This document shows positions 41,084 through 45,280 of a DNA stretch of 64,000 nt, piece after piece. Source of the DNA: Cyanidium caldarium (taxonomy: Eukaryota > Rhodophyta > Bangiophyceae > Cyanidiales > Cyanidiaceae). The stretch covers positions 124,001 through 188,000 of the forward strand of contig JANCYW010000002.1 in the NCBI GenBank assembly GCA_026184775.1, written 5' to 3'. Both the position numbers and the translations under genes were made by a program. Below the pieces are notes generated by a model. That model was not told the DNA's origin and did not search any database. It worked only from the letters and a program-made list of their open reading frames with translations. Each line of letters begins with the position of its first letter. The first letter of the stretch is position 1.

Positions 41084-44000
41084 TTACGCAGTGGCACAAG
41101 GATGCCCTTGGTCGATGCGCTCCAGCACGTGGCGCAGCACCTCTTTGCCGCGCAGTAGGTTCAGTGCGCGGATGCGTTCATTGGGCAGATGCGGGGCGTC
41201 GCTCGCCTGTCCCAGCGGCACATGCACCGCGTTGGCCCGGAAGAGGCGTTCCAGCCACGAGGTCAACGGCATGCTGCCGCCCTCGCGCACGTACAGCGGT
41301 CTGGTGTGCCACACCTGTTCGATGGACTGCTCTACCAGCGTGAAGAGGGAGGCGGCGTCGATGGTACCGTTCGGCGGGGAGTGCTCGCTGCTGCCGTGCA
41401 CGTCGCCAAACCACCAGTCACCCTGTTTGATGCAGCGCGTGCGCAACTGATTGGGCGAGCGGCGTTTGCCAAACTCGAATCGCAAATGCTGCTCGATGAC
41501 GCGGCGCACGCGCTCCGGATCCTGATGCGGCACAGTGCGCACGGAGATGACCGCGCTAGCGCTGCGGGGAATCACCGACGGCGGGCAGGTGGCCGCGGAC
41601 CTGCTCGGGTCGGCGGAGTGGCCCGATGCAGGTGTCACTCCCGTTGCCGATAGCGGTATGGTCTCGACGCCGTTGCCCGTATCCCCGCCTGCCACCGAGG
41701 TGGTGATGTTGGTGATGGAGAGGCACGGCTCGCCCCAGCGACGTCGCAAGATATCGCGCGGCGTCTTGCCGGCCAGCGCCGGCACGCCCAGCCGTTGCCG
41801 ATACGCCTCGGCATCGAAATCCACCTCATCGTACGCGGCCAACTCGCGTGCATCCGGCTCGAGCACGCCGTCAAAGAACCCCGGCACCGCCGGCGTGCCG
41901 TGCGTATCCACCAGCGTGCCCAACACGCTCACCAGATCGATCGCCGGCTCGATGACCGCCCCGCCCTCGGTGCCCGAGTGCAAATTGCGGGCAGCGCCGC
42001 GCACCTCTACCTCGATGGTCACCGTACCGCGCATTCCGTACGTGATGCAGGGGCGGTCGTCGCCCACCCACAGACTGTTGGCGTGCAGGATGCAAGCCAC
42101 CGGCGATTCCGCCATCCGTCGTTCTACCGCGCCCGCATCACTGCCAGTGGGGACACCATTCGCGTGGGCCTCGGCACCGGCGGTGGCGGCGGGCACGCCC
42201 AAAAGCCACGGCAACTGCGACAGCACCGCCTCCCGGAATCCCTCGCTGGCGCTCTCCTCCTCGCCGTCCAGAATGAGCACCACGTTGGTGTGTATTTCGC
42301 CCGATGGAACACTCGTCGGCACACGATCAAGCGAGGCGTTCCCGCCCTCCTGCCGACGATATCGAGCGCGTTGCCGCATCTGCCACTCGGCCACCGCTAG
42401 GATCATCGCCAGAATGGGGCCTTTGTTGTCCGTCGTACCGCGGCCGTAATAGTATCCGTCCACCAGCGACAGATCAAACGGGTCGGTGCGCCAACCGTGC
42501 GTCCCATGCGCTGGCACGACATCGTAGTGACCGTAGAACACGACGGTCTGGGATGGCACTGGCGACATCGTCGCGGCGGTTTGGGGCATTGCCGCGCCCG
42601 CGGACCAGATCCGCGCCAACACCACCGGGTTGCGCGCCTCCACCGGCTGACTCAACGTCACATCGGCGCCGATGCTCTGCAGGAGGTGCGCCAGCCATTT
42701 GGCACAACGAAACGATTCGTCCCGATAGAACGGATGGCAGTCGCCGCCGCCGGAAATGGATCGAAAGCGCACCGCGGTGCGCAGTGCCCGCTCCAACACC
42801 TCCATACCCATCACGGCGCCGCTGTCGGCAGTGGCGGTCGGCGAGGTGAGGCTCAGTCGCGCCAGCGGCAAGTCCGCAGCCATGGGCGAGCGCGGCATCG
42901 ACCACTCCGACGGTGTCTCCATCGTCGGCGCCTCGGCTGCGACGGCCGCCGATGGCCATCCGAGTTCACGGCGCGCCCTCGCCGTGGCAATTCCGCCGCA
43001 CAGTCGACCGGCGCCGTCCAAACTCCACCCACAGATGTGGCCGTCGGCACATGACGCGTATAGTCGAGCTGCCTCACCCGCTCCCCCAGCGTCCGCGTCG
43101 ATGTGCGATGGCCGCTCTTCGTCTACCACCAGCAGCGCCGCCACCGCACTGGCGCCGGGCACCATCAGACGCGCTACACACTGCAAATCCGATTGACGCC
43201 ACACCAGAATCACCCCGTTCGACGAGCCGGAAAACAGCCACGACGATGCCATCGCCAGGCAGGACACATCGCCCGGGTGATACGCGCCGGCATCCAACGT
43301 GCGCCGACACAAATACGCCGCCCCGGCGCCCGTGTCCCACACCCGGATGCTGCCGTCGCGCGCCCCCGAGTAGAGGCGGTGGCCACGCGCGTCGTCCGCC
43401 ACCAGCGTCAGCACCGCCCCGCGGTGTCCGCGCAACGTCGCTCGACACGCGCCCGAGGCAATATCCCACACTTTGATGCTGGCATCACCGGAGCCGGTAA
43501 AGAGCGTGCCGCTGAACACACTCACCGCCAGGCAGTACACCGGCCCGCAGTGCAGCGACGCCGCAGCGCCTCCGAACAGGCGTGGCTTCTGCGGCGAAGA
43601 CAACGACAGCGCGGCGACGCCCGCTTCACCCCGACCGTCGCCATCGCCCAGGGCATCTTCTGTCGGTGTGTCCGTATCCACGGGCATCGCCTGCACCGAG
43701 CCGTCCTGAAAGCCCAGATACAGCCGGCGCCCACAGGTGGCCAGCGACAGCGGGTGACCGCCGGCGTGTCCCAGTCTCCATTCGGCCGCCAGCGTGAACG
43801 GCGACTTGGCGATGTTGAACAGGCGCACACAGTTGTCGGTGGAGATGACCGCCAGGCGCGTCGATGACGGGCACGGCGGCGGCGAGGCGGTGATGGCCGT
43901 CGGCATCACCGCCAAACCCAAAATGGCGCTGCTCGAGTCGCTGACCCGCACCCGCTCCACCATGCACATGGAGGTGGTGTCCCACACCGACACACTGCCG

Positions 44001-45280
44001 TCTTGTGCGCCGAAGAGAAGCCAAGTGGCCGGTGTCGATCCGATGTCCTGGGCGGCCGGCAGCTGTGGGGGCGCGGCGCGGCGATGCAATGCCAGGGTCA
44101 GGACGGCAGTGTGGTGCATTTCGATCAGCTCGTCCACCTGGTGCATGACAAACGGTTCGGTGGACGCATCGGTCGAATGTGCCTCGGGCAGCGACATCGG
44201 CGATATCGCCAGGGAGGCATCGGCCGCTGCCTCTCCATTTGGCATGGAGGACATCTCGCCAGCCAGCAGATACTCCAGCGCCACGGAGATGCGACTGCGG
44301 AGGTGGCACGCGGGCGCCGCCACATCCCCGATCTCTACCTGCTCCAACAGCAAGTGCAGGTCGCGCGTCACCACCAGCACCGAGTTGCGCGGGAACGGCA
44401 CCCAATCCGCAGTGCGGGCGGTGAGCGGCTCACTGGCCACCAGCACCACGCCGCATCGCGTTGCCGCTCCGTACGACATGGTGTAATCGGATGCGCCGTC
44501 ATCGGGGGCATCGCCCAGCCGAGTGTAGGCCGCGGCCGACGCGAAATACAAGCTCGCCGCCGGCACTTGCGCGTCGTGCAGCCGAAAAGCGTACCGCGTG
44601 GCCACCAGCGCCTCGCCGTTGGATACCACAAAGTTCAGCAGCGACACCTCCGAGCGGACGCTGGGGGCGTTGTCCGCGCGGCCCGCCTCCATTACCGTGC
44701 GCACGATGATCTCGATAGTACGCAACAGCATTTGCCGCATCGCGTCCACATCATACCGCACTGCCGTGCCGCGCTCCATCTGATTCAGGAATAGCGCAAA
44801 CGCCACCAGACTGTCGCTAGCGCCATGTCGCACCGCAAACTCGTAGCACTCGTCGTTGAGCTGGTTCAACAACGCCCGTCGCACACGGCCGCCCTGCCAT
44901 CCGGCTATGGCGCCGTTGTGGGCGAACATATAGTGCGAATAAGTGAACGGATGGCACGACTCCTCGGTCACCGAAGTGCCGGCCGTGGCCGCCCGCACGT
45001 GCGCAAACACCACCCGTGAGCGTATCCCCTTCTCGGCCAGGTGGTGCAAGTTGGCGTCGTTCCACGCCGGCCGTATCGACTTGTACACGCACGGCGCACC
45101 GTCGCTGCTGTACCAACCGATGCCGTACCCGTCGCCGTTGAGCGAGGCCGGCACTTGCTCACTCGCCGCGCAGAGCCGTTCGCGCGCATCGTACGACTGG
45201 CGGATGATGGAGCGGCTCGGCCGAGTGACCACGTCGGCCGCAGCAATGGGCCTGCCCAAGTAGGCCACCATGCGACACAT
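41084..45280 (-). CDS. single-chain Dug3-Dug2 fusion: glutamine amidotransferase, WD40 and M20 peptidase
   Basis: 1398 residues in one uninterrupted frame. Residues 1-360 are a class II glutamine amidotransferase of the Dug3 type: MCRMVAYLGRP with Cys2 as nucleophile, GDGYGIGWY, VVFAHVRAAT, and FAHNGAIAGW. Residues about 390-780 are WD40 repeats, for example LFTGSGDASIKVWD and LYSGARDGSIRVWD. Residues about 820-1398 are an M20 metallopeptidase: FYGHYDVVPAHG, YYYGRGTTDNKGPI, LDGEEESASEGF, and APHLPNERI with metal ligands in place. In yeast Dug2 (WD40-M20) and Dug3 are separate proteins that together split glutathione. Here both are covalently joined, with Dug3 first. Confidence 0.92.
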   Translation of the reverse strand: MCRMVAYLGRPIAAADVVTRPSRSIIRQSYDARERLCAASEQVPASLNGDGYGIGWYSSDGAPCVYKSIRPAWNDANLHHLAEKGIRSRVVFAHVRAATAGTSVTEESCHPFTYSHYMFAHNGAIAGWQGGRVRRALLNQLNDECYEFAVRHGASDSLVAFALFLNQMERGTAVRYDVDAMRQMLLRTIEIIVRTVMEAGRADNAPSVRSEVSLLNFVVSNGEALVATRYAFRLHDAQVPAASLYFASAAAYTRLGDAPDDGASDYTMSYGAATRCGVVLVASEPLTARTADWVPFPRNSVLVVTRDLHLLLEQVEIGDVAAPACHLRSRISVALEYLLAGEMSSMPNGEAAADASLAISPMSLPEAHSTDASTEPFVMHQVDELIEMHHTAVLTLALHRRAAPPQLPAAQDIGSTPATWLLFGAQDGSVSVWDTTSMCMVERVRVSDSSSAILGLAVMPTAITASPPPCPSSTRLAVISTDNCVRLFNIAKSPFTLAAEWRLGHAGGHPLSLATCGRRLYLGFQDGSVQAMPVDTDTPTEDALGDGDGRGEAGVAALSLSSPQKPRLFGGAAASLHCGPVYCLAVSVFSGTLFTGSGDASIKVWDIASGACRATLRGHRGAVLTLVADDARGHRLYSGARDGSIRVWDTGAGAAYLCRRTLDAGAYHPGDVSCLAMASSWLFSGSSNGVILVWRQSDLQCVARLMVPGASAVAALLVVDEERPSHIDADAGGAGEAARLYASCADGHICGWSLDGAGRLCGGIATARARRELGWPSAAVAAEAPTMETPSEWSMPRSPMAADLPLARLSLTSPTATADSGAVMGMEVLERALRTAVRFRSISGGGDCHPFYRDESFRCAKWLAHLLQSIGADVTLSQPVEARNPVVLARIWSAGAAMPQTAATMSPVPSQTVVFYGHYDVVPAHGTHGWRTDPFDLSLVDGYYYGRGTTDNKGPILAMILAVAEWQMRQRARYRRQEGGNASLDRVPTSVPSGEIHTNVVLILDGEEESASEGFREAVLSQLPWLLGVPAATAGAEAHANGVPTGSDAGAVERRMAESPVACILHANSLWVGDDRPCITYGMRGTVTIEVEVRGAARNLHSGTEGGAVIEPAIDLVSVLGTLVDTHGTPAVPGFFDGVLEPDARELAAYDEVDFDAEAYRQRLGVPALAGKTPRDILRRRWGEPCLSITNITTSVAGGDTGNGVETIPLSATGVTPASGHSADPSRSAATCPPSVIPRSASAVISVRTVPHQDPERVRRVIEQHLRFEFGKRRSPNQLRTRCIKQGDWWFGDVHGSSEHSPPNGTIDAASLFTLVEQSIEQVWHTRPLYVREGGSMPLTSWLERLFRANAVHVPLGQASDAPHLPNERIRALNLLRGKEVLRHVLERIDQGHPCATA

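Follow-up and report, generated by a model that had tools for sequence, protein, structure and literature searches.

Dug2 and Dug3 are separate proteins in yeast; can one gene encode both, and what kind of enzyme would the joined chain be? The question is raised by a locus of the red alga Cyanidium caldarium, in a stretch of 64,000 nucleotides (hereafter the window; positions 124,001 to 188,000 of contig JANCYW010000002.1, GenBank assembly GCA_026184775.1). An earlier note, made from the sequence of the window alone, had read Dug2 and Dug3 as one polypeptide of 1398 residues encoded at 41084..45280. This claim is borne out by the open frame, the domain order and the full-length homologs. The gene is a single uninterrupted frame on the minus strand from ATG to TAA (1398 residues plus the stop codon), the domain search of the translated frame that the note had proposed finds the Pfam families GATase_4, WD40, Peptidase_M20 and M20_dimer in this order and all above the curated cut-offs, and the best homologs cover 99-100% of the protein. 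The architecture is thereby established, and the genome itself (8,787,356 bases in 20 contigs) holds one full-length match to the protein. With a probability of roughly 0.7, we propose that the gene encodes a cytosolic, probably dimeric, single-chain counterpart of the yeast Dug2-Dug3 enzyme, which would act as a gamma-glutamyl hydrolase on glutathione and related peptides and use its M20 domain as a platform.

The guanine-plus-cytosine (GC) content of the window is 62-68% (2-kb blocks). In 200 base shuffles read in one frame, the longest stop-free run was at most 374 codons, against the 1398 observed, which rules out a chance open frame. An artefact of assembly or gene modelling that joined two adjacent genes is so improbable as to be nearly refuted. 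The earlier note had considered a break, intron or assembly error between the amidotransferase and WD40 parts (around 44100-44300), and there is no sign of a break at this junction (about 44153-44245): the frame stays open, third-position GC is even across the junction (0.72-0.87 in every 100-codon block of the gene), and independently sequenced relatives have the same order of parts. A passage of PMC9812998 counts only 44 introns in the Cyanidium caldarium 063 E5 genome. Altogether, 112 proteins from several types of source match both ends, and ten of these have names in the style of transcriptome assemblies (P0018, P0021, P0045, P0081, P0083, P0084, P0241, P0248, P0252, and P0262), which would imply a single transcript across both parts in each of these organisms. 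All three parts are also present in the metagenomic protein P0002, which falls with Cyanidium and Cyanidiococcus in the trees. What speaks for an artefact is the annotated model of P0028 from Cyanidiococcus yangmingshanensis (810 amino acids), which has the amidotransferase and WD40 parts only; we reject the artefact on the independently sequenced and transcript-derived relatives. The P0028 model is 56% identical to its relative P0002 over 788 aligned columns, and its missing M20 part may reflect either a gene-model error or a real truncation.

We counted a protein as fused if BLAST (E-value 1e-5) detected the GATase part as well as the M20 part. The search with the full protein (best 120 of 245 matches examined) gave 89 fused proteins, and a profile search seeded with divergent members (best 120 of 493 matches, 90 of them new) gave another 23. 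The resulting set of 112, which includes the window protein, is not a census, and the choice of queries favours fused forms. The remaining 31 of the 120 full-protein matches comprise 30 M20 proteins without a GATase part and P0028. Among the 89, a WD40 part was recognised in every protein except P0083; it was not scored for the other 23. The set contains some fragments (P0265 with an M20 match of 72 residues; P0079 from Chondrus, P0091, and P0120 with partial GATase or M20 matches), and five proteins scored as Dug2-only (P0076, P0082, P0086, P0088, and P0092) may be truncated models.

Among the matches listed, with organism names as in the source databases, fused proteins occur in red algae (Porphyridium purpureum, Agarophyton chilense, Gracilaria domingensis), where the earlier note had suggested looking for them, as well as in green algae (Chlorella, Coccomyxa, Volvox, Chlamydomonas, Picochlorum, Chloropicon, Bryopsis, and others), Chromera velia and Vitrella brassicaformis, coccidia (Eimeria, Cyclospora, Toxoplasma, Besnoitia), and the thraustochytrid Hondaea. 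The fused protein P0081 (EG_transcript_716) is, as we read its name, from Euglena gracilis. The fused form is therefore no peculiarity of red algae, which its presence in many non-fungal lineages rules out. The fungal proteins among these matches are separate, and an amidotransferase-only search (best 120 of 1328 matches) listed many stand-alone fungal proteins, some bacterial ones, and a few algal ones that are mostly marked partial. It also listed a stand-alone Dug3-type protein labelled Colp12 (P0128). A passage of PMC7147346 gives clone Colp-12 as Syssomonas multiformis, a unicellular relative of animals, and the Dug3 of this holozoan is apparently separate.

Database labels on the fused proteins include ‘putative di- and tripeptidase DUG2’, ‘Cys-Gly metallodipeptidase DUG1’, and ‘Glutamine amidotransferase type-2 domain-containing protein’. 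Chlorella vulgaris P0038 and Hondaea P0257 are fused and nevertheless carry the DUG1 name, apparently after their M20 part. Five fungal proteins (P0273, P0278, P0287, P0293, and P0323) list Dug3-like domains together with unrelated Pfam domains, which we take from their accessions to be Anp1, phosphoglucomutase, kinesin, GTP cyclohydrolase, and DnaJ; these are probably merged gene models.

The first 345 residues (44246..45280, minus strand) form a class II glutamine amidotransferase domain of the Dug3 type, an N-terminal nucleophile (Ntn) hydrolase, as identified by Pfam, by sequence matches in the PDB and by Foldseek. GATase_4 is matched at residues 47-303 with 54.7 bits (cut-off 23). The N-terminal Cys2 that the earlier note had pointed out is present in the translated frame (45275..45277, minus strand), and after removal of the initial methionine it is the predicted nucleophile. 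The same Met-Cys start is found in 73 of the 112 fused proteins, the remaining 39 listed sequences beginning elsewhere. In a 40-row alignment H121, N122, G123, and D156 are invariant, and C2 and H94 are at least 90% conserved. Four PDB entries match the domain in sequence (best E-value 4.2e-19), namely 3mdn, a protein with a class II amidotransferase domain, and the EgtC structures 4zfj, 4zfk, and 4zfl; EgtC is also among the Foldseek fold matches of the GATase-WD40 model. The window protein thus has both marks of Dug3, the Met-Cys N terminus and the GATase_4 domain, and its amidotransferase signature is established. The only other GATase_4 match in the genome is read from its sequence as PurF.

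A linker (residues 346-376; 44153..44245, minus strand) with low predicted local distance difference test scores (pLDDT; means of 43-53 in the ten-residue blocks of residues 341-370) leads to a WD40 beta-propeller at residues 377-767 (42980..44152, minus strand). The propeller is identified by Pfam (best WD40 match at residues 611-649), by the structure model m83ee8d8a1e4c and by Foldseek, in which the model matches WD40 propellers. By our own count, this region of the model has 28 strands, or seven blades of four, and the model of residues 1-800 has a pLDDT of 81.7. A second linker (residues 768-830; 42791..42979, minus strand) has a pLDDT below 50 at residues 768-800 and lies outside both structure models at residues 801-830. 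It is followed by the M20 part, so that the order known from Dug2, a WD40 propeller and then an M20A domain, is found here as well.

The last part (residues 831-1398; 41087..42790, minus strand) is an M20A-type, carnosinase/Dug1-like domain with an M20 dimerisation subdomain (Peptidase_M20 at residues 914-968, M20_dimer at residues 1082-1270). Could it be a working Cys-Gly or related peptidase, so that one chain cuts glutathione all the way to glutamate, cysteine and glycine? Its fold is that of carnosinase and Dug1, and the Cyanidium protein keeps the ligand positions H918, D920, D951, E1007, E1008, H1101, and H1364. Most of these are largely kept among the scorable proteins of the fused set (H918 in 83/86, D920 in 82/86, D951 in 86/87, E1007 in 70/85, H1101 in 87/88, H1364 in 85/86). 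The full set of metal ligands of an active M20A dipeptidase such as CN2 or Dug1 is nevertheless incomplete. Alignments and family counts place Asn1068 (42077..42079, minus strand) opposite the Asp of active M20 dipeptidases, which is present in CN1, CN2, Dug1, and the carnosinase-like protein L013 of the same genome, and which we take to be the metal ligand D195 of CN2. Asn or Ser occupies this position in all 109 scorable fused proteins: Asn in 86 and Ser in one of 87 in the first set (two of 89 gapped), Asn in 20 and Ser in two of 22 in the second (one of 23 gapped). All 30 Dug2-only proteins, fungal ones included, also have Asn (S. cerevisiae Dug2 itself is outside the 30). Furthermore, position 1008 is Glu in 48 of 85 scorable fused proteins and Gly in 31, and yeast Dug2p is reportedly without peptidase activity. 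We consider an active M20 peptidase very unlikely on these grounds. The replacement of the ligand by a Dug2-like Asn is established for the window protein, and because a conserved metal ligand is replaced across the aligned members, the M20 part is not to be read as another functional peptidase; judged from the alignments, it looks catalytically impaired throughout the family. The replaced ligand would also account in a simple way for a lack of peptidase activity in the M20 half of Dug2.

The single-chain enzyme that we propose would work as follows. Removal of Met would expose Cys2, and the Ntn amidotransferase domain would attack the gamma-glutamyl amide of glutathione or related gamma-glutamyl peptides, either releasing glutamate and Cys-Gly or handing the gamma-glutamyl group on to an amine acceptor. 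The WD40 propeller would hold the amidotransferase, and the M20 domain, with its replaced ligand, would serve mainly as a platform for dimerisation or regulation and not as a peptidase; the M20_dimer domain is present, and the fungal DUG complex is said to dimerise through its M20 domain. Cys-Gly would then be cut by a separate peptidase. We infer the substrate, the oligomeric state, the role of each domain and the cytosolic location, the activity by analogy with yeast. According to passages of PMC6508711, the yeast (Dug2p-Dug3p)2 complex splits glutathione into glutamate and Cys-Gly and also passes the gamma-glutamyl group on to other amines, and passages of PMC7617739 call it cytosolic and give it a part in the breakdown of gamma-Glu-Met. 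Since no N-terminal extension precedes Cys2, a cytosolic location would fit the window protein as well.

Several observations weigh against the proposed enzyme. The predicted template modelling score of the model of residues 1-800 (0.87) is a global figure. The genome also encodes two gamma-glutamyl transpeptidases (GGTs) and one ChaC-type cyclotransferase, which could carry glutathione breakdown. Finally, among its three other M20 proteins (L012, L013, and L014) there is no clear cytosolic partner of the Dug1 kind: each is hydrophobic near its start, as judged by eye, and may be a membrane or secreted protein. Of these, L013 (G000:C10:290954-292192) keeps Asp where the window protein has Asn1068 and begins with a hydrophobic stretch close to the N terminus. 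Dug1 ranks sixth by E-value among its PDB matches, and L013 is a candidate Cys-Gly peptidase; three M17 leucine aminopeptidases are encoded as well and could do this step. The GGTs and ChaC lend some weight to the view that the enzyme acts mainly on other gamma-glutamyl compounds (gamma-Glu dipeptides, glutathione conjugates, phytochelatin-like peptides) and that glutathione is left to those enzymes, as does the activity of the yeast complex on gamma-Glu-Met and as a transferase (passages of PMC7617739 and PMC6508711). We regard this view as unlikely: both halves are related to the yeast glutathione enzyme, and glutathione is for this reason the expected substrate by default. Glutathione breakdown in this genome may thus have at least three kinds of entry enzyme. 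The suggestion of the earlier note that glutathione turnover is cytosolic here is backed in part: the chain starts directly at Met-Cys, but the genome also has the GGTs and ChaC.

How the single chain and the separate pair are related was examined in quick trees of hand-picked rows without bootstrap, one of the GATase part (74 rows) and one of the M20 part (64 rows; P0077 and P0120 were left out for their short length), and in a tree of both parts (41 rows) rooted on two named bacteria (P0173 and P0228) and three metagenomic amidotransferases taken as bacterial. The eukaryotic GATase rows fall on one branch with fungal Dug3 and a few metagenomic rows, and not with the bacterial relatives (99 in the Shimodaira-Hasegawa-like approximate likelihood ratio test, SH-aLRT; 100/100 in the two-part tree), and the ancestry shared with the fungal pair is established. 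The GATase and M20 trees give the same groups (Cyanidiales with Nannochloropsis, other red algae, green algae, coccidia), and the two halves therefore seem to share a common history. The two-part tree has a fungal branch (100/99) and a second branch that unites all fused rows with the Nannochloropsis pair (84/80). The approximately unbiased (AU) test does not reject a tree in which the fungi group with Euglena and a relative (p 0.249; 0.178 with a third row added), and for this reason one shared fusion and an opisthokont fission both stand. Euglena groups with the fungi in the M20 tree (92), where the outgroup L013 sits on a very long branch and the rooting is unreliable, and it is unplaced in the GATase tree, where the two named bacterial rows do not fall on one side of any branch. 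P0128, which is separate, groups with the fungi in the GATase tree (99), and the separate state therefore looks opisthokont rather than fungal, as far as one transcript-derived protein can suggest. It is conceivable, although we hold it only tentatively and at less than even odds, that the single chain with its inactive M20 scaffold is an ancient eukaryotic enzyme that predates the split of green and red algae, alveolates, stramenopiles, and euglenids, and that the two-protein complex of fungi is derived by fission in opisthokonts. If so, the fused proteins would be natural templates for the way in which yeast Dug3 sits on Dug2.

Nannochloropsis gaditana has the two halves listed as two proteins (P0121 and P0076), one of them marked partial. 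Both halves group with Cyanidiales and not with the other red algae (98 and 92 in the single-part trees; 100/98 together), a placement that suggests transfer from a cyanidialean-like red alga.

The gene is flanked in the window by genes of other functions. Directly downstream on the same strand lies origin recognition complex subunit 4 (39306-41099; ORC4_C, 50.1 bits), and its frame, given with a TTG start but perhaps beginning further in, overlaps that of the fusion gene by 16 bases. A protein kinase gene is divergent from the fusion gene (45041-47341, plus strand; Pkinase, 195.9 bits). As listed, its frame overlaps the 5' end of the fusion gene on the other strand, and the true kinase start is probably further in. 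The plus strand also carries a DUF2465 protein (37762-39219; 42.7 bits), presumably FAM98, and a ribose-phosphate pyrophosphokinase (49197-50483; Pribosyltran_N, 122.8 bits).

The enzyme is already known; what seems to be new is that it exists as a single chain and that it extends beyond fungi. The DUG route is called fungal-specific in the discussion of PMC6508711 and fungus-specific in the abstract of PMC9012958, and we found no description of a Dug3-Dug2 fusion in the open-licence literature. The earlier note, which knew of no description of this form in red algae, is in line with that search, but its scope was too narrow. If the single chain is spread across algae and other protists, glutathione breakdown by an amidotransferase would become a widespread eukaryotic pathway and not a yeast peculiarity, and green algae would offer test cases with a single gene. 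The PDB matches listed include no entry for Dug2 or Dug3, and we know of no solved geometry of the DUG complex, for which the fused proteins offer one-chain constructs for structural work.

Four known systems can be compared with the window protein. EgtC (4zfj, 4zfk, and 4zfl) resembles its amidotransferase domain in sequence and fold. We take EgtC to be the Ntn hydrolase of ergothioneine synthesis, which also cuts a gamma-glutamyl bond; it is, however, a stand-alone bacterial protein without WD40 or M20 parts, and the acceptor half of its substrate differs. The M20A dipeptidases, carnosinase CN2 (2zof) and Dug1 (4g1p), have the Asp ligand, whereas the family members scored have Asn or Ser. 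In Euglena, P0081 has both parts, with 28% identity over 51% of the window protein. PMC6351624 names one Euglena gracilis contig as encoding orthologues of the glutathione (GSH) degradosome proteins, and the passages on this contig do not mention a fusion. The fourth system is the (Dug2p-Dug3p)2 complex of Saccharomyces cerevisiae, which has the same domains in related halves, an Ntn amidotransferase (Dug3) and a WD40-M20 protein (Dug2). Passages of PMC7617739 describe two proteins in yeast, whereas Cyanidium has one chain with the Dug3 part first, a single-chain variant of the fungal two-protein complex.

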